Both the position numbers and the translations under genes were made by a program. Positions 1,830 to 41,768 of a stretch of 41,842 nt of DNA are shown here, one piece after another. Location: NCBI GenBank assembly GCA_946415525.1, contig CAMKSZ010000003.1, positions 1-41,842 on the forward strand. The letters are read 5' to 3'. The notes beneath the pieces are model-generated. The model was not told the DNA's origin. It was given only the letters and a program-made list of their open reading frames with translations, and ran no database searches. The DNA is from an uncultured Prevotellaceae bacterium. Lineage in GTDB: Bacteria; Bacteroidota; Bacteroidia; Bacteroidales; Bacteroidaceae. Within the stretch, counting starts at the first letter, position 1, and each line of letters starts with the position of its first letter.

Positions 1830-1867
1830 TGGTTACTTTAATAGAGAAAGCTTATATATACATTCAA

Positions 1868-2821: not shown

Positions 2822-2845
2822 TAACGAATCTAACACCCTATCAAA

Positions 2846-4449: not shown

Positions 4450-4470
4450 GAAATTAGTACAATCATAAAA

Positions 4471-4524
4471 GAGGAGTGTGGGAAAACGCATTTGTAACAA
4501 TGCTTTTTTCACACTCTTTTTTTC
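4471..4524 (+). terminator. Intrinsic terminator of the decarboxylase operon
   Basis: GAGTGTG (4474-4480) pairs with CACACTC (4510-4516), inner GCATT/AATGC hairpin, followed by a T-tract. Confidence 0.7.
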
Positions 4525-4549
4525 CAAGTCCAAAAGACTCTTTCCAATT

Positions 4550-10991: not shown

Positions 10992-11023
10992 TTTGTTGTG
11001 ATTGCGTTATGTTTGTAATAGAG

Positions 11024-14659: not shown

Positions 14660-14741
14660 GATTGACTTATTTTATAAAAGGCTAAAAACTAATTATCGAA
14701 CTTACGTTAGTAATTGTATAGATTGTAGTTATATATGGGTG

Positions 14742-14749
14742 CAAAAATA
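14742..14749 (-). promoter_or_regulatory. Candidate -7 element for the 14659-5844 minus-strand gene pair
   Basis: Minus-strand TATTTTTG (TAnnTTTG), ~80 bp upstream of the 14659 start; no clear -33 element. Confidence 0.35.
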
Positions 14750-14813
14750 ATAAAAAAAACACATAATGTGAAATTAAGCATTCTAAAAAGTTAGGTGATA
14801 ATGATTTTTTGGT

Positions 14814-14821
14814 TAATTTTG
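14814..14821 (+). promoter_or_regulatory. Candidate -7 element for the 14847 gene
   Basis: TAATTTTG matches TAnnTTTG, 25 bp before the ATG; -33 element unclear. Confidence 0.4.
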
Positions 14822-14846
14822 CCGTAGATAAAAAACAATCGCCACC

Positions 14847-17636: not shown

Positions 17637-17799
17637 CCATGTCTCTTCGTGTACCATTGATGAAGTGATTGGCATGGAATAATCCTTATAAGTTGAACAT
17701 CAGGCCCAACTGGACATCCAATTTCTATTAATAATTGTTAAAACACAAGTTGAGTGTGCTTCTTTCGATGGAATGTTTCTTTTTTAGCGGGAAAATTGC

Positions 17800-17807
17800 T
17801 ATCTTCG
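17800..17807 (+). promoter_or_regulatory. Candidate -7 element (TATCTTCG) for the 17836 gene
   Basis: One mismatch to TAnnTTTG, 28 bp before the ATG. Confidence 0.35.
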
Positions 17808-17835
17808 CAGAACATACTTTAAACCTACTACCATC

Positions 17836-23900: not shown

Positions 23901-24507
23901 TTACAAGGTGGTGCTTCAGGGCTTCTACCGTGCCGGTGGCTATGCCAATGACTATACCACTTGGACTGAGAATGCCGATGCCAACAACAACGCATTCTTG
24001 TATGCCACTGCTGGAGAAGACACTGTCAGTGTCGCTCTGCACCGCTTGGCTTCGCAAGCCTTCGTCATGGAAGAGTTGACAGACGGTTGGGTTTATGTAT
24101 CTGAATCAGAAGAGAACAAGTTGGCTGTCCCCAACAGCATGACAACTGCTGCCGATGCCTTCCAGACACCTGGTGCTGACGGCAAGAACCTCTACTCTGA
24201 CAATAGCGTGATTGTGAAGGTTGGCGAAGAAGGCAACCTGACCATCGGTCTGAGGAAGGACGTTACCCTCACCGATGACTGGACAATCTGGACCAACTGG
24301 CAGTTGATTTACTACGGCAAGAACAGCAGCCTTGATGAGAGTGGCAACCCGCTGAGCATCGAGACCATGAATGCCCAAGACATTGTCAATGCCGAGATCT
24401 TCACTGTTGATGGCATACGTGCCAACAAGTTGCAGAGGGGTGTAAACATCGTGCGTGAAACCCTGAGCGACGGCACCACCAGAGTCAGGAAAATCAGCGT
24501 CAAATAA
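20935..24507 (+). CDS. Large secreted protein with N-terminal RICIN-like region, three GW/FYR modules separated by helical FIVAR-like linkers, and T9SS-like tail
   Basis: 1190 aa; signal peptide MKIAKLLVLGALFLMGSNAVKA; three modules (see repeats); helical linkers such as ALENIKDFSDAFCTQSYLDAYNAAANAIRNASTKEEIMGALSNYQNAVAELEKNI; tail AEIFTVDGIRANKLQRGVNIVRETLSDGTTRVRKISVK. Confidence 0.85.
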   Translation: MKIAKLLVLGALFLMGSNAVKAVDGSVWSKPTVTEFASLVNGEVYYFYNTGSQLFFTQGNAYGTQASAGTIGLQVRVEEVDKGVYTLTDYVKTQSAWKMWWFVQDANIMYVDYNNQPDFLWEIKDMGGNVYRLSPSALNPNWNDNTKFVGLNRVTDPENTVLNSDCTADDGSFIDWQLVPLAAGEAYEAQITIYEAAMALKEVLDRGEEIGANIAAQVAVYNNTSSTLEELNAAIEAAKKAVEAREEELVAENYGNATVDNPVNVTKLFITNPTFVGSKYDGWSGSAFGGYNPKENAEHYNKNYDTYQVLSELKEGVYKVNVNAFYRAGNAQPAYDNYKAQNEESKYAKIFAVTATDSLVVSIASPYTAGLTANMTTGSWSTATDAETGESFVIPNNMEAADEFFKAGYCNDNSIFIAVTDGNLKIGVRKDNTISGDWSIFDDFSLTYYGNSDEAYKLILASALENIKDFSDAFCTQSYLDAYNAAANAIRNASTKEEIMGALSNYQNAVAELEKNIKLWEEFIKLRETAKSVAADENYAEENRYDLGDWAELEAEDILKSHELTNEELEAEMARVQEMIQKVWSEPFNGADMTKLLVNPDFENSDNGWTKQAASGGNVAIGGNSDNHCFEAWNNANFDIYQVVKNAPMGVYEISVKGFYRYGRTAFQAYLNKEQYTTKETCPVFIYMNANSTPFTNVYGDPVQITDPEFYAGTGTQSEMLEDGTTVYFPNDMASAAIAFKNNMFMQSAYGLVAQEGDEIRIGAKGCSNQLGDSWCIWDDFKLTFRGFQADVVKPVLEQAIADGEAALGSAIGKDVVGDLQAAIDEAKALVNGDDGRAMFAALTKLFDMQDAVNASKNLFAKLEQANEKLALAIQSAVASASIVNEAKALNSQITSGLDNHDFSNSDVEELINQINKMINRLGLPQDIESASDNNPVICSTVIVNPAYVEGTDDGWTGTASVNATANDAEMFNKNFNYYQLIQGLPAGTYKVVLQGFYRAGGYANDYTTWTENADANNNAFLYATAGEDTVSVALHRLASQAFVMEELTDGWVYVSESEENKLAVPNSMTTAADAFQTPGADGKNLYSDNSVIVKVGEEGNLTIGLRKDVTLTDDWTIWTNWQLIYYGKNSSLDESGNPLSIETMNAQDIVNAEIFTVDGIRANKLQRGVNIVRETLSDGTTRVRKISVK
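21718..22284 (+). repeat. GW/FYR module A
   Basis: PVNVTKLFITNPTFVGSKYDGWSG...YDTYQVLSELKEGVYKVNVNAFYRAGNAQPAYDNY...GNLKIGVRKDNTISGDWSIFDDFSLTYYG. Confidence 0.85.
22702..23295 (+). repeat. GW/FYR module B
   Basis: GADMTKLLVNPDFENSDNGWTKQ...CFEAWNNANFDIYQVVKNAPMGVYEISVKGFYRYG...DEIRIGAKGCSNQLGDSWCIWDDFKLTFRG. Confidence 0.85.
23740..24318 (+). repeat. GW/FYR module C
   Basis: PVICSTVIVNPAYVEGTDDGWTGTAS...FNYYQLIQGLPAGTYKVVLQGFYRAGGYANDY...GNLTIGLRKDVTLTDDWTIWTNWQLIYYGK. Confidence 0.85.
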
Positions 24508-24565: not shown

Positions 24566-24606
24566 AAGGAACTGGTGGCGGGCTAATGTCTGTCCACTGG
24601 TTCCTT
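24566..24606 (+). terminator. Intrinsic terminator between the 20935 gene and the SusC/D operon
   Basis: AAGGAACTGGTGG (24566-24578) pairs with CCACTGGTTCCTT (24594-24606), two G-T, followed by TATTCTTTTT. Confidence 0.8.
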
Positions 24607-24807: not shown

Positions 24808-27465
24808 ATGAGACTAACAAAGCAAGAACACAAGTCATTAAGGCGAATGTCAAGGTTCGCGTTGGCCTGTTGTGGTTTGCTGATGGGTGCCTGGTCGTTG
24901 CAGTCTTGTGAAGACGAGTATCTGCTGACGGGCCAACCGTCATGGTTGGGCAACTCCATCTATGAGCAACTACAAGAAGATGGTCACTACACGACCTTGT
25001 TGCGCTTAATTGACGACCTGGGGCAAAAGGAAGTCCTTAGCCACACGGGTTCCAAGACCTTGTTTGCTGCCAACGATGACGCTTTCCAAAAGTGGTTTGG
25101 CGGCAATACATGGGGAGTGAACAATTACGGTCAGTTGTCAACAGCACAAAAGAAATTGCTGCTAAACAACTCTATGATTAACAACGCTTATCTTATCGAG
25201 TTGCTTTCCAACGTAAGTGGCAATCCACCAATGGAAGGCATGTGCATGAGGCGTGAGACAGCCTCCTCCATCTACGATTCCGTTTACATTATGAAACCGA
25301 CGGAAATGCCCAAGACTGCATCCTGGCAGAAGTTTAGGGATAAGGGGCAAAGCATTCCCATCATGAAAGATGCCACATCCGCCCCGATGATTCATTTCTT
25401 ACCCGCTTTTATGAACTATTATAACATAAGCGACAACGACCTAAGTATCCTGACCAACCATCAGGCCACTTCCACTGCTGAGTCATGGGTGAACGGGCAA
25501 CGCATCGGCGAGAAAGACATTACATGCAAAAACGGGTACATCCAAAAGGTGGATGGCGTGATTGAAGCATCTACCAACATGGCAGACATCATTCGCAACC
25601 ATTCCAACATGTCGATGTGGTCGTCATTGCTTGATCGTTTCTCTGCACCCTTCTTTGACGCTAATTCCACAAGGGAGTACAATCGTCTTTACAACAATCA
25701 AGACTCGGTCTATACACTCCGCTATTACAGCAGACGTTCCGCAGGCAGCACTGCCTCGCAAAGTTACAGAGTGGAAACTGACCCCAACGGCGATGCCGTA
25801 TCGGCAGTCCTATCATTCGACCCAGGGTGGAACCAATATATTTATGCCAATACGATGAACTATGACTTGCATTATGATGCCGCTGCAATGATTGTCCCGA
25901 CTAACGAGGCTTTGGAACACTGGTGGAATCATGAAGGCAAGGATTTGCAGACAGAATACCATACTTGGGATAGTATTCCCGATGCTACCTTGGCAAAGTT
26001 GCTCAACGTGAATATGCTGCCAACATTCACCGATGCCATACCTTCCAAGTTTGACCATGTACTCAACGACGCTAAAGAACCTCTTGGCATTACCGTTGCC
26101 AATGTCGATTCTTGTTTCATGGGCTGTAATGGTGTGGTTTATCTTGTCAACAAAGTGTTCACGCCAGCAGAATATTCTTCCGTGGCTTATCCTGCTCTTG
26201 CCCACGAATCGACTATGAACGTCATCTATTGGGCTATCGACCAGTTGAACTTCCTGCCCTACCTGCTCTCCATGGACTCGAAGTATAGTTTGCTTTTGCC
26301 CACCAACAATGCCATGTTGTCCTATCTTGACCCTGCTTTTTATGGCAATATAGAAAACAGCACAGGGTTGGAAGCACCTTCCCTCATTGAATTCTACTAC
26401 GACAAGTCAAAACCATTGACCGACCGTGTGCAAGCACGCCGTTACAGCAGTACGGTTGATGAAAATGGTGTTGTCACCATTGGCCCACGTACCCAAGCCA
26501 CTGTTGCAACCAATGTCATACGCGACCGATTGAGAAGGTTGATGGACCAACTGATTATCGTTGGTGACGTGGAAGACGGACACGAATATTATAAGTCAAA
26601 AGGCGGCACGTTGCTTAAGGTGTCACGGACACCCGACGGACGCTTGGCCTTCTCCGGTGGCTGGGATATTGAGCATAACAACATCCAGTTGGCAGTGAAT
26701 AATAATGAAATCTACGAAAAAGTCAATGGTAAGTCATACCAATTAAATGACCGTATGCCGCTTAGTGCACAGCAAACCCTCTATACCACCCTCATAGGCA
26801 ATGAAAATTTCTCGAAATTCCTTGACTTGATTGATCATGACGGTAGTGAACTGATGACCACCAAACTCAGCAACAAATACAACGCAGGCATGACCAATCA
26901 GGGCAGCAAGAACTTCCGTTTGTTCGACAACTACAACTATACTGTTTACGTTCCGACCAACGATGCCATCCAACGCTTGATTGACGACGGCATTCTCCCT
27001 ACATGGGAAGACTATGAGGCCCAAACAGAGCAGGTATGGGGAACTGAAGAAGCAGCAGAGGAAGCCCGTCAGACCATCAAGAACATAATTGTCAACTTCA
27101 TCCGCTATCATGTACAAGACCATAGTGTAGCCATCGGAATGGCTCCAGAGTCGGGCAGCGACGTGAATGTCTATGAGAGTATGCTTCGCAATCCTGAAAC
27201 AGGACGTTTCTACCCCCTGACATCCGATGCTTCAGGCAACCAATTGACGGTTACGGACATCATGGGCAATTCCCGCCATGTCATCAAGACAGCGGGCCTT
27301 TATAACCAAATTTGTCGCGACTATTGGTTTGAAGGCAACATTAGCAGTAACAATGCAGTCATCTTCATGGCTTCCGACGCTGTGGTTCACCAAATCGACG
27401 GTTGCCTGATGGCTGAGCAAATGACCCCCTGGAAGCAACAACTTAATAAGATTAGGAGGAAATAA
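24808..27465 (+). CDS. Fasciclin (FAS1) repeat lipoprotein, about four FAS1-like domains
   Basis: Start moved from ORF-track 24682 to the ATG at 24808; lipobox LQSCEDE; FAS1 H1-like motifs TLFAANDDAFQKWF, AMIVPTNEALEHWW, SLLLPTNNAMLSYL, TVYVPTNDAIQRLI. Confidence 0.85.
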   Translation: MRLTKQEHKSLRRMSRFALACCGLLMGAWSLQSCEDEYLLTGQPSWLGNSIYEQLQEDGHYTTLLRLIDDLGQKEVLSHTGSKTLFAANDDAFQKWFGGNTWGVNNYGQLSTAQKKLLLNNSMINNAYLIELLSNVSGNPPMEGMCMRRETASSIYDSVYIMKPTEMPKTASWQKFRDKGQSIPIMKDATSAPMIHFLPAFMNYYNISDNDLSILTNHQATSTAESWVNGQRIGEKDITCKNGYIQKVDGVIEASTNMADIIRNHSNMSMWSSLLDRFSAPFFDANSTREYNRLYNNQDSVYTLRYYSRRSAGSTASQSYRVETDPNGDAVSAVLSFDPGWNQYIYANTMNYDLHYDAAAMIVPTNEALEHWWNHEGKDLQTEYHTWDSIPDATLAKLLNVNMLPTFTDAIPSKFDHVLNDAKEPLGITVANVDSCFMGCNGVVYLVNKVFTPAEYSSVAYPALAHESTMNVIYWAIDQLNFLPYLLSMDSKYSLLLPTNNAMLSYLDPAFYGNIENSTGLEAPSLIEFYYDKSKPLTDRVQARRYSSTVDENGVVTIGPRTQATVATNVIRDRLRRLMDQLIIVGDVEDGHEYYKSKGGTLLKVSRTPDGRLAFSGGWDIEHNNIQLAVNNNEIYEKVNGKSYQLNDRMPLSAQQTLYTTLIGNENFSKFLDLIDHDGSELMTTKLSNKYNAGMTNQGSKNFRLFDNYNYTVYVPTNDAIQRLIDDGILPTWEDYEAQTEQVWGTEEAAEEARQTIKNIIVNFIRYHVQDHSVAIGMAPESGSDVNVYESMLRNPETGRFYPLTSDASGNQLTVTDIMGNSRHVIKTAGLYNQICRDYWFEGNISSNNAVIFMASDAVVHQIDGCLMAEQMTPWKQQLNKIRRK

Positions 27466-27468
27466 GCC

Positions 27469-30400
27469 ATGAGAAAATTCCAATCCATCATATTGACACT
27501 ATTGATGTTGGTTGTGGGTATCGACATCCACGCCCAAGGCATCACTTCCGTCCACGGCACCGTGAGCGACGACGTTGAGCCCTTGATTGGAGCAACTGTC
27601 TGCGAGATCGATGCCAACGGTCGTATTATCGAAAGTGCGATCACCGACCTCAATGGTAACTTCACCATGAAGGTGCAAAACCCGAAAGACAAGATTCGTT
27701 TCACCTATGTTGGTATGAAGAACGTCACACTTCCCATCGACCGGACTACATACGAGATTAAGATGGAGTCGGCCACCTCGTTGCAAGAGGTCACCGTGGT
27801 CTCCAAGCGTCGTGCGAGAGGCAACTCGCTGCCGATACCAGAACGTGAACTTTCTTCCGCTACCCAACGACTTAATATGCAAGAGTTCGAAGGACTTGGC
27901 ATCACCTCCGTCGATCAAGTGTTGCAAGGTCAGGTGGCAGGTCTTGACCTTATCAGTAATTCTGGCGACCTTGGATCCGGTTCCACCATGCGTCTGCGTG
28001 GTGCCACCTCTCTCTCCACACTCACCAACTCCAACCCATTGATTGTTGTCGATAGCAACATTCGTGAAGTCAACCTCGACAATTTCGACCTCGCTTCCGC
28101 CAATAATGAAAAATTCGCAGAGTTGCTGAACATCAACCCTGAGGACATCGCCAGCATCAATGTCTTGAAAGATGCTGCCGCAACAGCACAATATGGCTCC
28201 TTGGGTGGCAACGGTGTTATCGAGTTGACCACCAAGCGTGGTGTGCCAGGCCCACCGAAACTCACTTACACTCTGAAAATGACAGGCACCTATCTTCCCA
28301 AGGGATATGAAATGCTTAATGGCGACGACTACACCATGCTGCTCAAGGAGTCGTATTTCAATCCGACCCAGAACGACAATGCTTCAGCCAATGTGCCTGA
28401 AATCAATTATGACCCCACGTTTTCGGAATACGAGCAATACAACAACAACACAGACTGGCGTGACGCAGTCACCCAATGGGGACTCCGCCAAAATCACTAC
28501 GTCACAGTCAGTGGTGGTGGCGAAAAGGCATCCTTCCGTATTGGCGGTGGTTTCGACCATGAGACCGGTACCATCATTCAGCAGAAACTCAACCGCTTCT
28601 CCACCCGTGTCGCCCTTGACTACAACATCAGCCGCCGTATTCTTGTGAGCACCAACTTTGCGCTCACCTATACGAAGAACAACATGAACTACCACGATCT
28701 GTTGAATATTGCCTTGAAGAAGATGCCCAACATGAGCATTTACGAGCAGGATCCCCTGACAGGTGCCGACACCGACACTTATTACACGATGCTCCAGTCT
28801 GCTTCCAGCGTGTTTGACAAGAATCAGAAAGACTACATCAACCCTGTAGCATCTGCTTATCTTGCCATGAACCAGCGCCGCACTTATGACATGTCGCCCG
28901 AATTGGTTATCAATTACCAACTTTTGGGCACCGACTTTGAACATACTCAACTCAATTGGCGTGGTTCGATGTATATGAACATTTTCAACCAATACGATGA
29001 CAAGTTCGACCCCCAGGAGTTGCATGGAACCCAGTTGAGAGACAACAAGAAAATCAATAACAGTTATTCTGGTTCTTCGAAAAGCGTCTCGTTGAACACC
29101 AAACAGACAATTACCTTCATCCCCGCATTTAGAAACAAGGATCACTCGCTGATGTCGCACGTCCGTATGGAACTCACTTCCGGTTCTTCAAACAACCAAG
29201 GAACCTCGAGTTACCTCAATCCCTCAGGCGGCATCACCAGTCCCAATGCAGGCGGTATGACAGACGGACTTTCCTCGGGCTATAGTGAATGGCGTTCGCT
29301 CTATTTCACCTTCTCAACTCACTATGCTTATAAGGAGCGTTATATTGCCGACTTCACTGTCCGCGCCGATGGTACCACTAAGTTTGGACCAGGCAATCGT
29401 TGGGGCTATTTCCCCTCCGTCTCTGCCAAGTGGATTATCAGCGACGAGCCTTGGATGAAGTGGTCGAGAAAATGGCTCTCCATGTTGGCCATTCGCCCCA
29501 GTTGGGGACGTGTGGGCAACCAACCTGGTTCCAATTACCTATATACGTCGAAGTACCGTAGTTCCTCCGACAAGTATATCGACATGTCAGTGATGTATCC
29601 TGAAAACATACGACTCACTGACCTCAAGTGGGAAATCGTTTCCAGTTACAACCTGGGATTCGACTTGGGCTTTTTCGACGGACGCCTCACCATGGCCATA
29701 GAAGGCTATCGCAGCACTACCTCTGATATGCTGATTAGCAATTACCGTATCCCCTCAAATGTCGGTTTTAGCACCCTGCCTTATAGAAATAGCGGCAAGA
29801 TGAGAAACACTGGTTGGGAATTCCATGTCAACACCAACAAACTCATCAAGAAGGGCAAATTCTCCCTTGACTTTAACATCAACTTTGGCAACAACCGAAA
29901 CGAGATTCTTGAAATGGATGAATATGTGCTCAGCAACTATAACTCTGTTTTTGGCTACAATAATGCAGAAACCTTGCGCCGTGTGCAACTCAACAACCCT
30001 TTGGGGGCCATCTACGGTTTCCGTTACAAAGGCGTTTACCAATATAACTATAACACATTCAGCAAGATGAGCCGTGAAGAGCAAGAACAGTTTATTGCCA
30101 GTGGCAAAACCGCCCCTGTCGCAATAAATGCCAACGGTGAGATTGTCAGGGACGGCCAAGGCAACCCAGTCCGTATGATGTACAACTACACCAACGACGG
30201 AACTGGCAAGAACTTCCGATTCTCCGGTGGTGACGCTATCTATGAGGATGTGAACCACGATGGTCAAATCAATGCACTCGACATCGTCTATTTAGGCAGT
30301 TCACTTCCTAAACTCACAGGCGGTTTCGGTCTCACCATTAATTATGGCGATTGGCGTTTCACTACGCAGTTCACATATCGTACGGGCAACAACATCATCA

Positions 30401-30801
30401 ACATGGCCCGTCTGAGAGCCGAGGCCATGACAGGTAATGACAACCAAAGCCAAGCAGTGAACTATCGCTGGCGCAAGGAAGGCGATGTCACTTCCATCCC
30501 AAGAGCCATGTATGGCAACGAATCCAACTACAACTCATTGGTGAGCGACCGTTTTGTGGAGGATGGCAGTTATCTACGAATGGGCTTTGCACAGATTTCA
30601 TACGTGCTAAGGCAGAAATTCATCAAGGCCATGGGCCTCAACAAAATTTCGCTCTATGCCAGTGCCAATAACCCGTTTGTTATCACTAAATATTCCGGCG
30701 TTGACCCTGACATTTCCGCAAGGGGATACGACCCCGCCATCGACAACGCACAAACACCGCGCTCGCGTTACTATACCTTCGGTATCACCGTAGACTTCTA
30801 A
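27469..30801 (+). CDS. SusC/RagA-family TonB-linked outer membrane protein (pair 1)
   Basis: 1110 aa; carboxypeptidase-regulatory-like N-domain (VHGTVSDDVEPLIGATVCEID...), plug (SVDQVLQGQVAGLDLIS...MRLRGATSLSTLTNSNPLIVVDS...INPEDIASINVLKDAAATAQYGSLGGNGVIELTTKRG), C-terminal TPRSRYYTFGITVDF. Confidence 0.97.
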   Translation: MRKFQSIILTLLMLVVGIDIHAQGITSVHGTVSDDVEPLIGATVCEIDANGRIIESAITDLNGNFTMKVQNPKDKIRFTYVGMKNVTLPIDRTTYEIKMESATSLQEVTVVSKRRARGNSLPIPERELSSATQRLNMQEFEGLGITSVDQVLQGQVAGLDLISNSGDLGSGSTMRLRGATSLSTLTNSNPLIVVDSNIREVNLDNFDLASANNEKFAELLNINPEDIASINVLKDAAATAQYGSLGGNGVIELTTKRGVPGPPKLTYTLKMTGTYLPKGYEMLNGDDYTMLLKESYFNPTQNDNASANVPEINYDPTFSEYEQYNNNTDWRDAVTQWGLRQNHYVTVSGGGEKASFRIGGGFDHETGTIIQQKLNRFSTRVALDYNISRRILVSTNFALTYTKNNMNYHDLLNIALKKMPNMSIYEQDPLTGADTDTYYTMLQSASSVFDKNQKDYINPVASAYLAMNQRRTYDMSPELVINYQLLGTDFEHTQLNWRGSMYMNIFNQYDDKFDPQELHGTQLRDNKKINNSYSGSSKSVSLNTKQTITFIPAFRNKDHSLMSHVRMELTSGSSNNQGTSSYLNPSGGITSPNAGGMTDGLSSGYSEWRSLYFTFSTHYAYKERYIADFTVRADGTTKFGPGNRWGYFPSVSAKWIISDEPWMKWSRKWLSMLAIRPSWGRVGNQPGSNYLYTSKYRSSSDKYIDMSVMYPENIRLTDLKWEIVSSYNLGFDLGFFDGRLTMAIEGYRSTTSDMLISNYRIPSNVGFSTLPYRNSGKMRNTGWEFHVNTNKLIKKGKFSLDFNINFGNNRNEILEMDEYVLSNYNSVFGYNNAETLRRVQLNNPLGAIYGFRYKGVYQYNYNTFSKMSREEQEQFIASGKTAPVAINANGEIVRDGQGNPVRMMYNYTNDGTGKNFRFSGGDAIYEDVNHDGQINALDIVYLGSSLPKLTGGFGLTINYGDWRFTTQFTYRTGNNIINMARLRAEAMTGNDNQSQAVNYRWRKEGDVTSIPRAMYGNESNYNSLVSDRFVEDGSYLRMGFAQISYVLRQKFIKAMGLNKISLYASANNPFVITKYSGVDPDISARGYDPAIDNAQTPRSRYYTFGITVDF

Positions 30802-30834
30802 TTATATTAAATAAAAGAAGAAAGACCAACTATT

Positions 30835-32640
30835 ATGAGACAATTTCATCTATATAAAAAATGGAAAGACATCGCATTCATGGCTGTTGCGACCCCAATA
30901 GCCGCCTTGTCATTTTCCAGTTGTTCCGACTTTTTGGAGATAGAGCCACGCGATGTCATCGTCCTCGAACAGTTCTGGAACGAGAAGAGCGACGTCGATG
31001 GCATCGTGGCAGGCTGCTATACGGCATTACAATCAGATCCTTGCATCCGAAGAATGATTATCTGGGGTGAGGCACGCAGTGAAAACATCTCTCCGGGTAC
31101 TAACTGCAACCTCGACGGCAACTTGTTGAATGTCCTCAACGAAAACATTACCGCCAAGAACGCCTATACTACTTGGGTGGATTTCTACAGTGTCATCAAC
31201 AGATGCAATACCGTCATTAAATTCGCTCCTGGCGTTGCCGAAGGTGACCCAGGCTACACTCAGAGCGAACTCCAAGCCACCATTGCCGAGATGACTGCCT
31301 TGCGCTCCCTATGTTATTTCTATTTGATTCGTACGTTCCGTGACGTCCCCTTTACGCGTGAAGCCTATACTGACGACGACCAACAACTGATGTTGCCTGC
31401 CACATCGTTCGATAATGTCCTCGACTCGTTGATATATGACTTGGAGAGTGTGAAGAACATGGCTATAGAGCGCTATCCGACCACCACACCCAGATACCAA
31501 ACCGGCCGTATCACCAAAGATGCCATCCACGCCATGCTTTGCGAGATGTACCTTTGGAAAAATGACTATGCTAACTGCATTAAATATGCCGATCTTGTGA
31601 TTGAATCCAAGAAAAAGATTGCCGAAGAATTAAGAAACGGCACATTAGGCTCATCGCGTGGTAGATCAAGTTCAATGAACAGTAGTGAAGCCCTCCTCCG
31701 TACCAATGGTTTTCCCTTGGTAAACAACATGACAACGAGCAATTATTTTGGCAATGCCTTTGACGTATTGTTCTCCGGCGATGACGACTATACCGAGGAT
31801 GCACAGCAAGAGATTATCTTCCAACTCATCTTTAGTGATCGACCTGATGCCGAGAGCATGCCAAACAATTCTGCCGTAAGCCTCTTCTATGGCAATAGCA
31901 CGCTTAATAATACGAGTGGCTACATGGCACCTTCTGATTTCGTCATCGAGGACATCGGAAAGGAAAGCGGACGCAACGTATTTGAGGACAAAAACAAGAA
32001 AGTGGACGCCCGTCTTTACATCAATTGTGACCCAAGTGCAAAGTCCATCTGCAAGTTCGTTTCCGAACAAATGACCATCAATGCCCAGTCTAAAGACCCT
32101 GAAGCATCCGGTTATTCGCTGAAATGGGGAGAAAAGACCAACGGTAGCAATTGGATTATCTACCGCCTCGCCGACATCATGCTCTTGAAGGCTGAAGCCC
32201 TTGCACAGCAATTGCGCGAAGGCAGCGATTTGGAGACCATCAATTTTAACAGGCCTATCATCGATACCGCCTTCTCGCTCATCAACGCCGTCAACAAGCG
32301 TTCCGTTTGCCAGACCACCCTTGTCGATACGTTGGTAGCCGGTGACTATGTGACGAAGTCGCAGTTGGAAAACCTTGTCATGAAAGAGCGTCAGCGTGAA
32401 CTCATGTTCGAGGGCAAACGTTGGTATGACCTTGTACGCCAAGCACGTCGTGAGGGGGCAACCACCAGCCTCTCTCAAGCCGCCCTCCATAAAGTGACAA
32501 CTGGTTCATCGCTTATCGCCAACAAACTGACGAAGATGGATGCCATCTATTGGCCGTATAACTACGAGGAACTGAAAGTGAATACCTTGCTGGTGCAGAA
32601 CCCCGCATTCAGTAGTGGCGTGAGTGATAGTTACGAATAG
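30835..32640 (+). CDS. RagB/SusD-family nutrient uptake lipoprotein (pair 1)
   Basis: 601 aa; lipobox FSSCSDFLEIEPRD; ALRSLCYFYLIRTFRDVPFTRE; YRLADIMLLKAEALAQ; ERQRELMFEGKRWYDLVRQ. Confidence 0.97.
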   Translation: MRQFHLYKKWKDIAFMAVATPIAALSFSSCSDFLEIEPRDVIVLEQFWNEKSDVDGIVAGCYTALQSDPCIRRMIIWGEARSENISPGTNCNLDGNLLNVLNENITAKNAYTTWVDFYSVINRCNTVIKFAPGVAEGDPGYTQSELQATIAEMTALRSLCYFYLIRTFRDVPFTREAYTDDDQQLMLPATSFDNVLDSLIYDLESVKNMAIERYPTTTPRYQTGRITKDAIHAMLCEMYLWKNDYANCIKYADLVIESKKKIAEELRNGTLGSSRGRSSSMNSSEALLRTNGFPLVNNMTTSNYFGNAFDVLFSGDDDYTEDAQQEIIFQLIFSDRPDAESMPNNSAVSLFYGNSTLNNTSGYMAPSDFVIEDIGKESGRNVFEDKNKKVDARLYINCDPSAKSICKFVSEQMTINAQSKDPEASGYSLKWGEKTNGSNWIIYRLADIMLLKAEALAQQLREGSDLETINFNRPIIDTAFSLINAVNKRSVCQTTLVDTLVAGDYVTKSQLENLVMKERQRELMFEGKRWYDLVRQARREGATTSLSQAALHKVTTGSSLIANKLTKMDAIYWPYNYEELKVNTLLVQNPAFSSGVSDSYE

Positions 32641-32669
32641 TCAATCATCAACTGTAATCAAGGATAAAA

Positions 32670-34745
32670 ATGAAAAAGTTTAGATATAACATACTGTGCC
32701 TCTTGGGTCTGGCCGCCATGCTGTCGGGGAGCCTTGCTTCCTGCTCAGACGAGCCATCCGCAGAGAATTTCTATACCTTTACGGGCGAGATGGCCAGCGA
32801 TTACCTGAAAAACCGGCCTCAATTTAGCGAGTTTCAAGAAATTGTGGAAAGAGCCGGCATGATGGACTTGTTGTCCACTTATGGTCACTATACCTGCTTT
32901 GTGCCTAACAACGATGCCGTCAACACCTTCTTGAAGAGCAAGGGACTGTCGAGTGTCAGCGACCTGTCAACCGCCGACTGCGACACCATCGCGCGCACCC
33001 ACTTGGTGAACAACATGTACACTACGATGGAAATGAACCAAGACCGTCTGCCGACAGCCAACATGCTCGGCCGATATATCGCCACGTCATCCGGCCTCGA
33101 TGACAAGCAGAATGCGGTCATCTTCCTTGAGGGCGTTAGCCACATTTATTTTGACTTGGCCGACGATTCTGTGGAAAACGGTATCATGCAACCCATTGAC
33201 AAGGTGATTGAAAAGTCTAACAACTACATCTCCGACCTGCTGCGTGACAATCCCAAAATCTCTACATTCTACCAGGCGCTGGTGGCTACCGACGTGCTAA
33301 AGCAAGTGCTCTTGGTGGAAGATGAAACGTGGGACAACAAAAAGTATCCGAAGTACTACTACAAGTCACATACTTGGAGTGAGGTGGCATGGGTGCCTGA
33401 CACCAAAAGATATGGCTTTACTGTCTTTGTTGAGCCAGATGCGTTGCTGCAAAGTAAATATGGTATTGCCCCTGGCGACATCAAGGCTCTTTACGACTTG
33501 GCTTGCTCTATCTACGACCCAGTCTATCCTGAAGATGTCAACAAGGAAGGTCATTCTTTTGAGCATCTTACCGACAGTATCAACCCGCTCCGTCGCTTCG
33601 TGCAATACCACATTCTCACCCGATACACGGCAGGTACTTCTGACCTAACCCCGATGGATGTAAACATCGGTGTCGTGAAGGGAGCCTTTGGGTTTGAGGA
33701 GACTCTCATCAATCCCATTGATTGGTTTCACACCCTTCTCCCCCACACCATGCTCAAGGTTGAGAAACTCACCGTGACCGACTTTGTGGGCAATGGCGTT
33801 AAAGGCGAAAGATACATCAACCGCAGGTATGACAAGTCTTATAAGATAGAGGGTATTCATATCGACCCGACCATCGAGACAGACATAACCCACGACGGTC
33901 TCAACGGACACTACTTCTATGTTGACGACATTGTAGCCTTCTCCTCCGACGTTCAGAACAAAGTGCAGAACATGCGTATCCGCATGGATTTCTCTACCGT
34001 GTTCCCAGAAGTGATGACCAATGGCCTGCGTTTTGAAGGCGACCCAACCCAAGATGACGATGCAGGTACCCCCGACGACTCTGCTACTCCTAAAAATGGG
34101 CGCAACTACTATTTCCCGTTGGGCTATCTCGATGGTGTCACTTTCACCAACTGCAACGTAGTTTTACGCCGCCCCCACATCAACTTCTGGTCTTGGCAAG
34201 GAGATGAATGGAACTTGTTCGGCGACTATGATTTCACCTTCCGCCTGCCCCCGATACCTTACAGCGGCGACTGGCAGGTTAGATTGGGCTTCTGTGCCAT
34301 TGAAACTCGTGGCGTGATGCAAGTGTATTTCGACGGTGTGCCGCAAGGCATCCCACTTGACATGACAAAATTCCTCAATTCCGACCTCTATATAGGCGAC
34401 CGATTCGTCACCGACGAGGGCCCGGGCGACTACGACAAGATGACCGACGAAGAGAAAGCCGAGGAGCAGAAACTCCTCAAGAACCTTGGCGCCTACCGCG
34501 CACCGCGTTCTCTCTTCCATTTTAGTACTTCTCAGAAGAATTTCTTCGTAGGCAACGAACGCACTTACCGTCGCATTCTCTGCCAGACTTACATGGATGC
34601 CAAGAAGGATCATTACATCCGTTTCCGCGTAGCCTCCGACGGCAAGCAAGGCAACAACAACGAGTTCATGCTCGATTACCTTGAACTTGTGCCGAAGAGC
34701 GTCTATGGTGTCGATAGTGACGGCGAGATGGAAGACGACCTCTAA
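32670..34745 (+). CDS. Fasciclin-domain lipoprotein with C-terminal beta-sandwich-like domain
   Basis: 691 aa; lipobox SLASCSDE; FAS1 motifs YTCFVPNNDAVNTFLKSKG...ARTHLVNNMY and YGFTVFVEPDALLQSKYG; C-terminal INFWSWQGDEWNLFGDYDFTFRLPPIPYSGDWQVRLGF...IRFRVASDGKQGNNNEFMLDYLELVP. Confidence 0.8.
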   Translation: MKKFRYNILCLLGLAAMLSGSLASCSDEPSAENFYTFTGEMASDYLKNRPQFSEFQEIVERAGMMDLLSTYGHYTCFVPNNDAVNTFLKSKGLSSVSDLSTADCDTIARTHLVNNMYTTMEMNQDRLPTANMLGRYIATSSGLDDKQNAVIFLEGVSHIYFDLADDSVENGIMQPIDKVIEKSNNYISDLLRDNPKISTFYQALVATDVLKQVLLVEDETWDNKKYPKYYYKSHTWSEVAWVPDTKRYGFTVFVEPDALLQSKYGIAPGDIKALYDLACSIYDPVYPEDVNKEGHSFEHLTDSINPLRRFVQYHILTRYTAGTSDLTPMDVNIGVVKGAFGFEETLINPIDWFHTLLPHTMLKVEKLTVTDFVGNGVKGERYINRRYDKSYKIEGIHIDPTIETDITHDGLNGHYFYVDDIVAFSSDVQNKVQNMRIRMDFSTVFPEVMTNGLRFEGDPTQDDDAGTPDDSATPKNGRNYYFPLGYLDGVTFTNCNVVLRRPHINFWSWQGDEWNLFGDYDFTFRLPPIPYSGDWQVRLGFCAIETRGVMQVYFDGVPQGIPLDMTKFLNSDLYIGDRFVTDEGPGDYDKMTDEEKAEEQKLLKNLGAYRAPRSLFHFSTSQKNFFVGNERTYRRILCQTYMDAKKDHYIRFRVASDGKQGNNNEFMLDYLELVPKSVYGVDSDGEMEDDL

Positions 34746-34811
34746 TCATCTGCTAATTGAATATTGATGATGCAATAGACAATTGAAGTTATCATTAGAA
34801 TCAAGAAATAT

Positions 34812-36533
34812 ATGAAACGAAATCACATATACAAGACAGTGTTGGGGATCGCCATGGTGGCCTTGACACTGACATCGTGCTCTGACGAATGGGACAACCA
34901 TTACAATGCTACGGCCCAAGGGACACTGAACGGCACGTTGTGGGAGGCCATTCAGAGAGACCCTAACTTGAGCAACTTCGCCAGTGTGGTGAGTGCTTGT
35001 GGCTACGACAAGTCGCTGGGAGGAAACCAGGTGTTCACCGTGTTCGCCCCCACCAACAACAATTTTTCTGCGGAGGAGGCACAACGCCTGATTCAATCCT
35101 ACAATGCGGAGAAAGGAAAAATGGATGATGACGATATCACCACTGTGAAGGAATTTGTCCAAAACCACATTGCCCTCTACAACTATTCCGTTTCAAGCAC
35201 GAGCAACGACTCCATAGTGCTGATGAACGGAAAATATGCAAAACTCACCCATGATGCCATTGACGGTATAAAGTTCTTGACTTCCAACCAACACTATGGC
35301 AATGGTGTGCTTTTCACATTGGAAAATAAGGTGCAGTTCTTCTCCAACCTCTTTGAGTACTTGCGCAAAGACACCGATCTTGACAGCCTGCGTAGTTTCT
35401 TCTACAATAGCATGTTCTATCGCCAGGAATTCCAACCCGATAAAAGTGTGGCTGGTGGCATCGTTGACGGAAAGACTATTTACCTCGACTCTGTTTTCCT
35501 GCAACAGAACGACCTTTTCGAGGAAGAATTCTTGGATGCCAAACTCAATACTGAAGACAGTACATATCTGATGGTTGCTCCCACCAACAGGGTTTGGAAG
35601 GAGTTGGTGGAAGAATACGGCAACTATTTCAATTACGACAATACCGTTCAAGACCGCGATTCCCTTGTCTATACCAACACACGACTTGGCATTGTAGGGG
35701 GCACCATTTTCAGCCGCACATTCAATAGCGATGCTGTGCTTCGTGACTCTGCCATGTCAACCAACTGTGTGATGAACCCCAACTACCGTAGGAGTAGGTG
35801 GGGAGCCGATAGTCTGCATTACTATCAGTACTACAAACCATTGTCCGCTCCTGACGGTGTGTTGACTGGTGCCGCCAACATTGCGTGTAGCAATGGTACC
35901 ATGTTCAAGTCTGACAACTGGAAATTTGACAAACTGAACACGTTCCACCGGATTCGCATCATCGAGGCGGAAAAAGGTGGAAATATCCGTGAAGTCAGCA
36001 AGGTGAAAAATACCTCCACACAAGAAGATGAGGAAACCGTCACTCCCAAAGTACGCTATGTGGTGACAGGCAACAAGTTCTATAATAAGGTGTCTAACAA
36101 TGGGTTCGTCGAATTTGATCCCCAAAAGACCACAGTCAATCACACTGTGTATTTCAACATCGATAACGTGCTTTCCAATGTAGGTTACGACATCTACTTG
36201 GTGACCGCTCCAGCCTTGGCTGCCGACAGTAACGCTACTGCCATCCAACGTCTCCCGACCATTTTGAGGTGCACGCTCGGTTATCACAACCAGGAAGGCA
36301 ACGAAGAGAGCAAGGAACTCATTTCGAGCGTTACAACCCAACCCGATATCGTGGATGCCATTCTCCTTGCCAAAGATTTCAAATTCCCGGTCTGTACCTA
36401 TGGCTTGGTGGAAGAAAAGCCCCAGGTGTGGCTGAAATTGGAAACCCGCGTATCAAGCACCCAGTTGCGCAACAACACCCATACTCGAACGATGCGCATT
36501 GACTGCATCCTCTTAAAACCCCATGAGGAATAA
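34812..36533 (+). CDS. Fasciclin-domain lipoprotein, two FAS1-like domains plus C-terminal beta-rich region
   Basis: 573 aa; lipobox LTLTSCSDEWDNHY; QVFTVFAPTNNNFSAEEAQRLIQ...FVQNHIALYNY; STYLMVAPTNRVWKELVEEYGNYF. Confidence 0.85.
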   Translation: MKRNHIYKTVLGIAMVALTLTSCSDEWDNHYNATAQGTLNGTLWEAIQRDPNLSNFASVVSACGYDKSLGGNQVFTVFAPTNNNFSAEEAQRLIQSYNAEKGKMDDDDITTVKEFVQNHIALYNYSVSSTSNDSIVLMNGKYAKLTHDAIDGIKFLTSNQHYGNGVLFTLENKVQFFSNLFEYLRKDTDLDSLRSFFYNSMFYRQEFQPDKSVAGGIVDGKTIYLDSVFLQQNDLFEEEFLDAKLNTEDSTYLMVAPTNRVWKELVEEYGNYFNYDNTVQDRDSLVYTNTRLGIVGGTIFSRTFNSDAVLRDSAMSTNCVMNPNYRRSRWGADSLHYYQYYKPLSAPDGVLTGAANIACSNGTMFKSDNWKFDKLNTFHRIRIIEAEKGGNIREVSKVKNTSTQEDEETVTPKVRYVVTGNKFYNKVSNNGFVEFDPQKTTVNHTVYFNIDNVLSNVGYDIYLVTAPALAADSNATAIQRLPTILRCTLGYHNQEGNEESKELISSVTTQPDIVDAILLAKDFKFPVCTYGLVEEKPQVWLKLETRVSSTQLRNNTHTRTMRIDCILLKPHEE

Positions 36534-36556
36534 CCCACAATCAATAATTTACGATT

Positions 36557-39500
36557 ATGAAGATGAAACTCAAGAATACAACATCCCTACACAGATGGCA
36601 AGACATTTTGTCAAGAGTTAATTGTCAATTGTTGATTGCCATGGGACTGCTGATGGCCATTCCCACCACGGCACTGGCCCAGTATGATGATGAAGAAGAA
36701 GGCGAAGCCAAGGCCAATACAGTAAAGGCCATCGTCCAGAAGAAGAAACAATATGAGACACGTACCGTACAAGGCCGTGTGCTCGACGCCACTACACACC
36801 AACCCATTAGTGGCAGCATTGTGGCTGCCGACGGTGTGGAAGGTTATAGCACACTCACCAATGATGATGGTACCTATGAATTGAAGGTGCCCGTATTCTC
36901 TTCTTCCATTTACGTAGTATCACCCGATTTCAACCCTCTTCGGGCCGGTCTTTCGGGCGAAGAGTATCAAAACGACGTGATGCTCTATCCCACCACATTC
37001 TCGGCTGACTACGCCAAGGAGAATAACATTCGCAACGAGCATGCCGCACAAGATTTTCAATACACCAACTCTGTCAACATCAAGGACGAGGTGCAAAAAC
37101 AACTTGGCGGACAGGCCTACACCATCACTCGCAACGGCATGCCAGGTGTGGGTAGTGTGATTTTCATGCAAGGCATCAACTCCCTCAATGCCAATGCCCA
37201 GCCCTTGATTGTTGTTGACGATGTGGTTTATGACCAACAATATGGGCGCACCATGCTCCATGATGGTTTCTACAATGACATCATCTCTAACATCAACCCT
37301 GCAGACATAGAAAAAGTAACCGTATTGCGCAACGGTACCGCTCTTTATGGTGCTAAGGGTGCCAACGGCGTGATTCTCATCCAGACGAAGCGCAACAAGA
37401 CGATGGCCACTCGAATCACTGCCAGTGTCTCTGCCGGCGTGGTTTTGGAGCCCAAGTTCATCTCTGTGATGGATGCAGAACAGTATAGAAGTTATGCCTC
37501 TGAGTTGTTGAAGACAACCAACACAAACATTCAGACCTTCAAGTTCCTCAACGAGGATCCCAACTATTACTACTATACCCAGTATCACCAGAATACGGAT
37601 TGGAAAGACCTTGTCTATCACACTGCCATGACACAGAACTATGGCATCAACGTGTCGGGTGGTGACAATATCGCCAGTTACAACCTTTCCGTGGGTTATA
37701 CCAATCAAGCCAGCAACTTGAAATTCAATGACATGGGGCGCATCAACATCCGCTTCAACACCGACATTCAGTTACTGAAGAGACTCGACATCCGATTCGA
37801 TGCCTCCTTCTCCAACATCACTCGCAATATTCGCGATGACGGTGCCCCCATGAGTTACGATGAGGGGACACCCACCAGCCCTTCGTTCCTTGCATACGTA
37901 AAGAGCCCCTTCCTCAGCCCCTATAGTTATGGCCGAGGCGTGCTGAGCGACAGCCATTTCGACATCAATGAGGAGAGTTATCTCTCGGAGGCATTGGCCA
38001 ACTACAACAGTTATAACTGGAAGTTGGGCAACCCCGCCGCCATCAACGAATATGGAGACGCCGAGAATAAGAACCACTTCGAGAACTCCATGCTCAACTT
38101 AACCGTTACGCCCAAATGGACTTTCAGCCCACATCTTTCGCTCCAAGAGCACTTCAGTTACAACTTGGTGAACACCAATGAAATGTTCTACATCCCAATC
38201 AACGGAACCCCCAGTTATTATGTTAGCAAGATTGGTGCTACACGTGAGAATGAAGTGCGCTCATTGGCCTCTAAACAAAATTCTGTGATGAGTGACACGC
38301 GAGTGGATTGGAAAAACAGATTCTACGCCCATGACTTGCATTTATTTGCGGGTGCCCGTATCAATTGGGAAAGTTATACCATGAACTCTCAGTTGGGCTA
38401 TGACACAGGCAACGACAAGACTCCCTACATGAGCAGTAACTTGAAGGACGCAACCACTCAAGGAACCAATGACAGTTGGAACTCCATCGCATGGTACGCT
38501 CAAGCAGAATACAGTTTCAAGAGCAGGTATTTCCTGCAAGCCAACCTCACCATGGAAGGTTCGTCTCGCTTTGGCCGCGATGGTGGTGACCTCAATTTCT
38601 TGGATGCAGCCTGGGGATTGTTCCCCGGTGTCCAAGCCTCATGGGTGATTACCAACGAACCATGGATGGCCAAACAGAAGATTGTCAACTATTTGCGTTT
38701 GACCGCCGGCTATGATATTAGTGGCAACGATGAAATCGACTACTATGTGGCCCGTAGTTTCTTCCGTACCCAGAAATATCTCAAGACTTTGACCGGCTTA
38801 TCCCTCGACGGCATCGGCAACACAAAGATTCAATGGGAACGTACAGGAAGGATGAATGTAGGTCTTGAAGCCCGACTCTTGAACAATCGCATATCTATCG
38901 AAGCCAACCTCTTCAAGAGCAAGACTTCCGACCTGCTCACTTACCAGTCACTTGGTTTCCTCTCAGGACTTGACCAAAACTGGAACAATGGCGGCAAACT
39001 TGAAAACAAGGGATTTGACATCAGTGCCAGTATTAAGGTACTCGCTCTTCGTGATTTGCAATGGCAAGTGGGCGGAAGCATTGGACACTACAAGAACAAG
39101 ATAACTGAATTGTCCGAGGGTGCAACTTTCATTGACAACGATGTGTATGGCGCCACCATCCGCACAGCGGTAGGCAATGCAGCCAATCTGTTCTATGGGT
39201 ACAAGACACAAGGTGTTTTCGCCTCTTCTGAAGAAGCCAAGGCTGCCAACTTATACGTTTTGGGAAGTAATGGTGTCGATAAGAATTACTTCGGTGCCGG
39301 CGACATGCATTTTGTGGACAAGGACAACAACGGGCTTATCAACGAGGCTGACCGCGACATCATTGGCGACCCCAATCCAGATTTTTATGGCAACATCTTC
39401 ACTACTGTCAACTACAAGAGATTCAAACTCGATGTCCGCTTCAACTATTCCGTGGGCAACGATGTTTACAATTACATGCGACAGCAGTTGGAAAGCGGCA

Positions 39501-39865
39501 CTCGCTTCATGAACCAAACGACGGCTATGCTCCGCCGTTGGCAGGTGGAAGGCCAACAGACCGACATCCCCAAAGTTACCTTCCAAGACCCAATGGGCAA
39601 CTCTCGTTTCAGTGACCGTTGGATAGAGGACGGCAGTTACCTCAAACTGAAGACTGTCACCCTCAGTTACGAACTTCCGCTTAAATCGCAGTTCATTCAA
39701 GGTCTCCAGTTCTGGATCCAAGCCAACAACGTCTTCACAGTGTCGAAGTACTTGGGTAGTGATCCGGAGTCAACCATGACCTCTGCCGTTATTGGTCAAG
39801 GCATAGACTTGGGAAGAATTGGACAAAGCCGCTCGTTTGTGGCTGGCATGAAAGTCAACCTCTAA
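36557..39865 (+). CDS. SusC/RagA-family TonB-linked outer membrane protein (pair 2)
   Basis: 1102 aa; TVQGRVLDATTHQPISGSIVAADG...; plug IFMQGINSLNANAQPLIVVDDVVYD...INPADIEKVTVLRNGTALYGAKGANGVILIQTKRN; C-terminal LGRIGQSRSFVAGMKVNL. Confidence 0.97.
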   Translation: MKMKLKNTTSLHRWQDILSRVNCQLLIAMGLLMAIPTTALAQYDDEEEGEAKANTVKAIVQKKKQYETRTVQGRVLDATTHQPISGSIVAADGVEGYSTLTNDDGTYELKVPVFSSSIYVVSPDFNPLRAGLSGEEYQNDVMLYPTTFSADYAKENNIRNEHAAQDFQYTNSVNIKDEVQKQLGGQAYTITRNGMPGVGSVIFMQGINSLNANAQPLIVVDDVVYDQQYGRTMLHDGFYNDIISNINPADIEKVTVLRNGTALYGAKGANGVILIQTKRNKTMATRITASVSAGVVLEPKFISVMDAEQYRSYASELLKTTNTNIQTFKFLNEDPNYYYYTQYHQNTDWKDLVYHTAMTQNYGINVSGGDNIASYNLSVGYTNQASNLKFNDMGRINIRFNTDIQLLKRLDIRFDASFSNITRNIRDDGAPMSYDEGTPTSPSFLAYVKSPFLSPYSYGRGVLSDSHFDINEESYLSEALANYNSYNWKLGNPAAINEYGDAENKNHFENSMLNLTVTPKWTFSPHLSLQEHFSYNLVNTNEMFYIPINGTPSYYVSKIGATRENEVRSLASKQNSVMSDTRVDWKNRFYAHDLHLFAGARINWESYTMNSQLGYDTGNDKTPYMSSNLKDATTQGTNDSWNSIAWYAQAEYSFKSRYFLQANLTMEGSSRFGRDGGDLNFLDAAWGLFPGVQASWVITNEPWMAKQKIVNYLRLTAGYDISGNDEIDYYVARSFFRTQKYLKTLTGLSLDGIGNTKIQWERTGRMNVGLEARLLNNRISIEANLFKSKTSDLLTYQSLGFLSGLDQNWNNGGKLENKGFDISASIKVLALRDLQWQVGGSIGHYKNKITELSEGATFIDNDVYGATIRTAVGNAANLFYGYKTQGVFASSEEAKAANLYVLGSNGVDKNYFGAGDMHFVDKDNNGLINEADRDIIGDPNPDFYGNIFTTVNYKRFKLDVRFNYSVGNDVYNYMRQQLESGTRFMNQTTAMLRRWQVEGQQTDIPKVTFQDPMGNSRFSDRWIEDGSYLKLKTVTLSYELPLKSQFIQGLQFWIQANNVFTVSKYLGSDPESTMTSAVIGQGIDLGRIGQSRSFVAGMKVNL

Positions 39866-39896
39866 GAAAGAACTTTAAAGTAAAAGACCAAAGATC

Positions 39897-41702
39897 ATGA
39901 AAAAAATCAGTATATTCATCAGCATTTTCTGCATGGCTTGTGGCTTCAGTGCTTGCTCAGACTTCTTCGACCAAGAGTCTGACCAATTGACCTTTACCGA
40001 CAACCACAAGTTAGACAATGCCACCGACTCGGTTTACAGCATGGTGGGCATCTTGAACAAACTGCAAGCCATAGCCGACAGGACTATCCTGCTTGGAGAA
40101 GTTAGAGGTGACCTTGTCAGCCTAACCAACAGTTCCAGCCGTGACCTTCGCGATGTGGCTCAGTTCAATGTCGGGAGCGATAACATGTACAATGTCCCTC
40201 GTGATTATTATGCAGTCATCAACAACTGCAACTACTTGATAGCAAATGCCGACACTGCACTGAAAGACAACCGCAACAATTACATCTTCATGAAAGAGTA
40301 TGCAGCGGCTAAATCCATTCGTGCATGGACTTACTTGCAATTGGTGCTCAACTATGGCAAAGTTCCTTTCGTGACCACTCCTATTGTCACCAAAGAACAA
40401 TCGGAGGCCCAATACGACAACTACGACATCCAAGCCATTTGTGAATACTTTATCAACGACTTGTTACCCTTGGCGGAAAAATATGGTCGCGAATACCCCT
40501 ATTATGACAACAGTTCCGTCTATCGCCTTATTTGGTTCCCCATCAACATCGTCTTGGGTGACCTCTACCTATGGGCTGGTAGTGTAAGCGGCAATAAAGA
40601 GTATTACAAGCAGGCTGCTCTTCGATACTACAAGTACATCTCCGAACGTAATGGCGACAACTCATACTATCCCATAGGTACCGGTCGCGTGGAATGGCCA
40701 ACCAACAGCACGGCGTGGAACACGACTATTGACGGTTGGTCAAGCAGTTTCATGAATGAAAGTTATGGATCCAACTCGGAGTTGATTACTATTATCCCCA
40801 GCAACACCAATAAAGCCGATGGCAACTACAGTGAACTTTACGACTTGTTTAACTCAAATGAGGAAAATGACTTTAAAGTGAGCATCACACCATCTACCAG
40901 AATGCAAGAGATTTCTGAGGCTCAAGATTATTGTCAGGTAAGTTCCAATGGCAAGACAGTGCAATATGCCCCCAAAGGCTTGTCAAGGCACCGTTCTGGC
41001 GACTTGCGTCTTAGTGCAACTTGGTATGAGGCGTATGGTGTCAATTATCTAACCAATGAGCGAGTGGAGATGCAAAGGATCTACAAACACCCCTCCAGCC
41101 ATCATGTGCACATCTACCGCCGACAAATGGTTTATCTCCGTTTGGCAGAGGCAATCAATCTTGCTGGTTATCCCCGCATGGCTTTCCAGTTCCTCTCCAG
41201 GGGGGTCAATAATTCTGTGCTGCAAGAAGAAGTTTATCCATATTATTCTCAGAGCGACTCCCTTTTCATCAGCCAGTTTGATTTCCCTGCCTCACGCTAT
41301 GTTGAGATGGACGTAGAAAATTGGATTGGTTCGGGAGGAGGACGTCAAAACTACAACATCATGGGTATCCACAATCATGGCTCGGGATTCACACCGCTCA
41401 ACGAGAATTATCAATTGCCTATCGACACGTTACGCACGGAAGCAGACCAGACTCCCGATTTGCAGAATTATGTCAACGAATTGATTCTCACAGAAGGGGC
41501 TCTGGAATTGGCTTTTGAAGGCACTCGCTTCTACGACATCATGCGTTTTGCCCTTCGTTCCTCCAATCCTGGTGAGTATCTTTCAAAGCGCATCTATATG
41601 AGGCGTGGAGTTAACAACAGCGATATCGTTAGAGGTGAAATGAAAGACCTCAACGACCAGAAGAACTGGTACCTCAATTGGAATGGGAAAATAGGCATGT
41701 AA
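39897..41702 (+). CDS. RagB/SusD-family nutrient uptake lipoprotein (pair 2)
   Basis: 601 aa; lipobox GFSACSDFFDQES; AKSIRAWTYLQLVLNYGKVPFVT; VYLRLAEAINLAGYP; LILTEGALELAFEGTRFYDIMRFALR. Confidence 0.95.
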   Translation: MKKISIFISIFCMACGFSACSDFFDQESDQLTFTDNHKLDNATDSVYSMVGILNKLQAIADRTILLGEVRGDLVSLTNSSSRDLRDVAQFNVGSDNMYNVPRDYYAVINNCNYLIANADTALKDNRNNYIFMKEYAAAKSIRAWTYLQLVLNYGKVPFVTTPIVTKEQSEAQYDNYDIQAICEYFINDLLPLAEKYGREYPYYDNSSVYRLIWFPINIVLGDLYLWAGSVSGNKEYYKQAALRYYKYISERNGDNSYYPIGTGRVEWPTNSTAWNTTIDGWSSSFMNESYGSNSELITIIPSNTNKADGNYSELYDLFNSNEENDFKVSITPSTRMQEISEAQDYCQVSSNGKTVQYAPKGLSRHRSGDLRLSATWYEAYGVNYLTNERVEMQRIYKHPSSHHVHIYRRQMVYLRLAEAINLAGYPRMAFQFLSRGVNNSVLQEEVYPYYSQSDSLFISQFDFPASRYVEMDVENWIGSGGGRQNYNIMGIHNHGSGFTPLNENYQLPIDTLRTEADQTPDLQNYVNELILTEGALELAFEGTRFYDIMRFALRSSNPGEYLSKRIYMRRGVNNSDIVRGEMKDLNDQKNWYLNWNGKIGM

Positions 41703-41724
41703 GCATTTCCTGTCACTTACTTTA

Positions 41725-41768
41725 ATGTCGCAACTATCCAAACATGATGGTTGCGACATTTTTATTTG
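41725..41768 (+). terminator. Intrinsic terminator at the end of the dual SusC/D operon
   Basis: 15-bp stem AATGTCGCAACTATC (41725-41739) / GATGGTTGCGACATT (41747-41761, one G-T), then TTTTATTT. Confidence 0.88.

Follow-up and report, generated by a model that had tools for sequence, protein, structure and literature searches.

A conserved cassette of FAS1 lipoproteins and two SusC/SusD pairs in Bacteroidota, with a proposed role in the uptake of plant cell-wall polysaccharides

A polysaccharide utilization locus (PUL) has been described as needing at least a SusCD pair, an endo-acting glycanase at the surface and one or more surface glycan-binding proteins (SGBPs) (PMC7618045). In two rumen relatives of the bacterium considered here, Murovec and Accetto reported PULs missed by earlier bioinformatic prediction, whose strongest induction was on rhamnogalacturonan (PMC11107044), while in Gramella portivictoriae the legend of Fig. 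6 places a gene for a FAS1 (fasciclin) protein within a cellulose/hemicellulose-like PUL (PMC4891872). Because PULs are annotated from their enzymes, a transporter cassette that contains none easily goes without an assigned substrate. This article deals with such a cassette, seven genes in the order FAS1, SusC, SusD, FAS1, FAS1, SusC, SusD, found at positions 24,808 to 41,702 of a 41,842-nucleotide stretch of an uncultured Prevotellaceae bacterium (contig CAMKSZ010000003.1 of assembly GCA_946415525.1; “the window” hereafter means this whole stretch). In the literature searched on fasciclin or FAS1 with SusC or SusD, no published description of the arrangement was found. The PULs of Murovec and Accetto could be the same as the cassette, but this is a lead only, the relevant passages of that work giving no gene content.

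On balance, and by no great measure, we think it probable that the cassette encodes a Sus-type outer-membrane uptake module with two transporters for a plant cell-wall polysaccharide, likeliest rhamnogalacturonan I (RG-I) for the family as a whole, with the FAS1 lipoproteins serving as surface glycan binders. The seven genes, named F1-C1-D1-F2-F3-C2-D2, are all open and on the forward strand, with gaps of 3, 33, 29, 66, 23 and 31 bp between them. F1 (24808..27465) encodes a FAS1 lipoprotein of 885 residues with the lipobox LQSC (Pfam Fasciclin, 2.6e-14), while F2 (32670..34745) and F3 (34812..36533) encode FAS1 lipoproteins of 691 and 573 residues. C1 (27469..30801) and C2 (36557..39865) are SusC/RagA TonB-dependent transporters (Pfam Plug, NCBIfam TIGR04056), and their partners D1 (30835..32640; SusD_RagB, 4.2e-22) and D2 (39897..41702; SusD-like_3 and SusD_RagB, each barely above cut-off) are SusD-like lipoproteins. 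By these Pfam and NCBIfam families, the locus has the adjacent SusC/SusD pair of a Sus-type PUL twice over. The cassette is framed by two terminator-like hairpins on the forward strand, one between the upstream gene and F1 (24566..24606; -26.9 kcal/mol, z -6.4 against shuffles), after which comes TTTATTCTTTTT, and the other 3′ of D2 (41724..41760; 15 pairs, -21.1 kcal/mol, z -8.1), a T-rich stretch following in both cases. Since the first hairpin separates F1 from the gene before it, F1 probably starts its own transcript. The outline drawn by the first-pass annotation, with seven closely spaced co-directional genes, two SusC/D pairs, three FAS1 lipoproteins and strong flanking hairpins, is therefore confirmed.

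Gene content, order and conservation were all observed well beyond the window's own genome, a Prevotella-type assembly of 3.4 Mb in 351 contigs from a rumen bacterium. A scan of genome contigs for relatives of F2, made with a closer subset of the alignment, gave 542 stretches, the best 80 of which were examined. These 80 named loci belong mostly to metagenome-assembled genomes of ruminant Prevotella, and the closest named matches include two cultured carriers, Xylanibacter brevis ATCC 19188 and Prevotella communis E15-14. The full gene order is present in 69 of them and the other 11 are contig-cut pieces of the same order, apparent breaks in some close relatives being explained by ORF-calling artefacts or contig ends. 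Such uniformity (80/80 once contig ends are allowed for) is not chance. The intergenic gaps are small throughout (medians of 4-34 bp), and complete cassettes occur beyond the genus, spread over eight or more further Bacteroidales families and two families from other orders of the class, so that the FAS1-SusC-SusD synteny, proposed earlier as a check, proves to be widely conserved. Six-gene and rearranged variants exist as well: two more distant members of the class (L169 and L172) have the order F-C-D-F-C-D, with one FAS1 protein per SusCD pair. The earlier suggestion of one FAS1 set per transporter fits both this variant and the seven-gene order, but falls short of proof. Carriage is patchy, F1 being present in 43 of the 100 genomes sampled in the genus (1-5 copies each) and in 18 of 197 Bacteroidales genomes.

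Have these genes travelled together? In trees of 47 cassettes, C1 and C2 fall into two separate clades, as do D1 and D2. When SusC proteins from other loci of the window's genome are included, they lie outside both SusC clades (node support 0.997 for C1, but low, 0.35, for C2). The pairwise distances of all seven genes correlate with r of 0.91-0.98, against at most 0.29 in permutations. Separate clades, correlated divergence and fixed order together mean that the seven genes have long moved as a set, by descent or by whole-set transfer, and on these sequence comparisons the cassette is one conserved unit.

The FAS1 domain is best known from animal adhesion proteins. In the cassette, Pfam Fasciclin is above cut-off in F1, F2 and F3, and a FAS1 domain profile recognizes three clear domains in F1, besides one degenerate stretch (four domains in about half of its relatives), and two each in F2 and F3, so that the total of 7-8 agrees with the earlier estimate of about eight, and the FAS1 folds on which the first reading depended are recovered by profile search. 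AlphaFold2 models built from 19-member alignments (pLDDT 82.1 for F2 and 85.5 for F3) have TGFBIp, periostin and fasciclin I among their Foldseek fold matches, at sequence identities of 10-21%. The models also match carbohydrate-binding modules (CBMs), namely CBM22 and CBM11 for F3 and MiXBM and CBM35 for F2, one of the matched CBM35 entries having been solved with delta-4,5-anhydrogalacturonic acid. We assign these matches to the C-terminal beta-rich parts of the two modelled proteins, and these CBM-like domains are an addition to the first-pass account. Most members of F1, F2, F3, D1 and D2 carry a lipobox, most often followed within five positions by two or more acidic residues. Acidic residues after the lipobox cysteine fit the known surface-export signals of Bacteroidota lipoproteins. 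No match to a SusE or SusF family was seen: in Pfam, Fasciclin is the sole family that F2 and F3 hit at E up to 0.1, and the two further sub-cut-off matches of F1 are to neither family. The idea that FAS1 lipoproteins replace SusE/F-like binders thus gains support from the lipoboxes, from the predicted CBM-like domains of F2 and F3, and from retention beside two SusCD pairs over large evolutionary distances. As a separate observation, other Bacteroidota (L170, L171, L173-L177, L179) have FAS1 proteins of about 570-590 residues whose genes do not adjoin SusCD genes.

Indications about the substrate come from cassettes elsewhere, several of which, across several families, have RG-I lyases or rhamnosidases beside their transporter genes. 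The G227 cassette lies among genes of polysaccharide lyase (PL) family PL4 and glycoside hydrolase (GH) families GH115, GH106, GH28 and GH2; that of G253 has GH2 and a fused class-II aldolase/dehydrogenase of rhamnose-catabolism type; that of G166 has the same fusion and two PL11 genes; and that of G472 has GH95 and GH106, with two PL11 genes about 20 kb away. PL11 also adjoins a G052 cassette, and a PL11-like gene adjoins a Prevotella cassette (L054). One P. communis cassette is preceded by PL11 and followed by a GDSL esterase and GH97, while another is adjacent to a hybrid two-component system (HTCS) regulator; a Reg_prop protein adjoins a G022 cassette. DUF4450 proteins, which may be a pectin enzyme not yet assigned, lie beside the RG-I-type cassettes of two unrelated genomes (L161 and L185).

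Carriage was compared with enzyme content in the 197 Bacteroidales genomes, taken as one or two per family from about 120 families, which lessens kinship bias though some is still present; carriers were the 18 genomes with long F1 matches. PL11 was found in 13 of 18 carriers and 11 of 179 non-carriers, GH106 in 16 and 33 respectively, and the control family GH92 in 7 and 119. Linkage within 20 kb, with approximate cassette ends, was modest (4 against 1.5 expected for PL11; 5 against 1.2 for GH106), limited as it is by fragmented contigs. Taken with the neighbourhoods, these comparisons of gene content make the plant cell wall a well-supported source of the ligand for the cassette family, and RG-I-type pectin its likely substrate as a whole, other candidates remaining.

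Several points weigh against this proposal or weaken RG-I as the sole target. A second control, GH10 xylanase, also tracks carriage (14/18 carriers, 24/179 non-carriers), so that RG-I specificity is not established and presence or absence alone is no proof of substrate. Other enzymes adjoin paralogues, with GH98 and GH43 beside some cassettes and GH10 genes near two in G134. The likeness of F2 and F3 to CBMs is one of fold only (E about 1e-4). In Pfam, no enzyme was found among the seven genes, a surface endo-acting glycanase included, and no regulator among the window proteins scanned, which leaves the window copy without linked enzyme or regulator; the absence of an enzyme, already remarked by the first-pass annotation, extends to the closest relatives, and the same scan found no RG-I lyase or rhamnosidase next to the window copy. 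Surface exposure, binding, complex formation, transport and substrate, finally, are all things that we infer. A tentative alternative, which we hold possible but less than probable, is that the same machine has another ligand, being a general plant-polysaccharide uptake core whose window copy imports hemicellulose (xylan, mannan or a mixed glycan) and not RG-I. The GH10 association, the GH10, GH98 and GH43 neighbours and the FAS1 gene of the Gramella PUL all speak for it. When the genomes are stratified by GH10, however, the associations of PL11 (common odds ratio 11, p 0.002) and GH106 (common odds ratio 20, p 5e-5) remain, whereas that of GH10 is lost on stratification by PL11 (p 0.12), though kept by GH106 (p 4e-4), and it is lyases and rhamnosidases that recur next to the cassette in several families.

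The first-pass annotation had leaned towards a matrix, glycoprotein or otherwise non-standard substrate, and the closest solved fold relatives of the FAS1 proteins are indeed animal adhesion proteins. Binding of host or matrix glycoproteins, for adhesion or as a mucin-type substrate imported by the SusCD pairs, is nevertheless very unlikely: FAS1 is a widespread fold, so a ligand cannot be carried over from fold matches; in other lineages the cassettes have ordinary plant pectin enzymes around them; carriage goes with PL11, GH106 and GH10, and GH92 is if anything depleted in carriers. It was rejected as the leading idea on these neighbourhood and carriage tests. Scarcely probable either is a non-nutritional SusCD system, for instance one for envelope or surface-protein assembly in which the FAS1 proteins would be structural. 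Such a role would suit the window-type clade, in which the order is very stable yet enzymes are not linked and the next gene downstream varies (in 38 cases on the same strand and in 34 on the opposite one, from scattered unrelated families, with no recurrent enzyme in close relatives). The patchy carriage in genus and order, however, fits a dispensable nutrient system better than a core function, and diverged paralogues and the HTCS sensor-regulator adjacent in P. communis also speak against it.

How might the uptake module for plant cell-wall polysaccharide, as we favour it, work? The polysaccharide would be cut by secreted enzymes encoded elsewhere. At the cell surface the three FAS1 lipoproteins would take the part of SusE/F-type binding proteins: F2 and F3 would hold the glycan through the CBM-like domains at their C-termini, and the FAS1 arrays of all three would be stalks or docking modules that space the chains and present them to the SusD lids. 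D1 and D2 would then hand fragments to C1 and C2 for TonB-driven import. C1/D1 and C2/D2 would be distinct, anciently separated transporters that remain together, and the two pairs may take up different fragments of the same polymer. A bolder and rather doubtful extension is that the FAS1 arrays tie the two different pairs into one mixed machine, importing two kinds of fragment of one branched polysaccharide side by side; if true, FAS1 would be a scaffold domain of glycan uptake and not an adhesin.

Directly upstream of the cassette, and probably on a separate transcript, the gene at 20935..24507 on the forward strand encodes a large secreted protein of 1190 residues with no Pfam family. In 51 named loci a homologue lies directly upstream in the same orientation, and the gene is conserved in this place in X. 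brevis and P. communis too; its product may be a secreted partner of the cassette. The idea that it is an enzyme was dropped, neither Pfam nor the PDB giving a match. Further upstream, positions 5844-20544 hold a cluster of large secreted proteins, among them a CotH protein with Big_2, LTD and a type IX secretion (T9SS) tail, a glycosyl-hydrolase-core protein with CBM_4_9, an MG2 protein and a ricin-B-lectin/LamG protein, while positions 138-5761 encode an Asp-Al_Ex permease, oxaloacetate-decarboxylase-type gamma, biotin and beta subunits and an MFS transporter. The window's genome (G000) contains two further cassettes: L009, on contig C26, is followed by a CHB_HEX_C_1/Fn3_assoc protein, and L011, on C33, whose start is cut, by a protein without assigned family and then a GH98 protein. 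These differing neighbours suggest that paralogue cassettes have different ligands.

The cassette has a fixed composition, is found in nearly half of the sampled genus genomes and in distant lineages, and in other genomes has neighbours that suggest plant pectin; through it, bacterial FAS1 domains would acquire a role in carbohydrate uptake that can be put to the test. With P. communis E15-14 and X. brevis ATCC 19188 in culture, it is directly testable. Among described systems, the FAS1 fold is shared with TGFBIp, periostin and fasciclin I, but these are animal adhesion proteins that lack CBM-like domains and have no SusCD partners. The G. portivictoriae PUL differs in being tied to GH5, GH9 and GH26, and the passages concerned give it neither a double SusCD cassette nor a role for FAS1 (PMC4891872). 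The levan and dextran utilisomes of B. thetaiotaomicron comprise a single SusCD pair with a surface endo-glycanase and one SGBP, whereas the cassette has two SusCD pairs, three FAS1 proteins and no enzyme, and any complex of its products would be a prediction; common to both is a SusCD core to which accessory surface lipoproteins are added, one or more of these serving, in the utilisomes, as a surface glycan-binding protein (PMC7618045).

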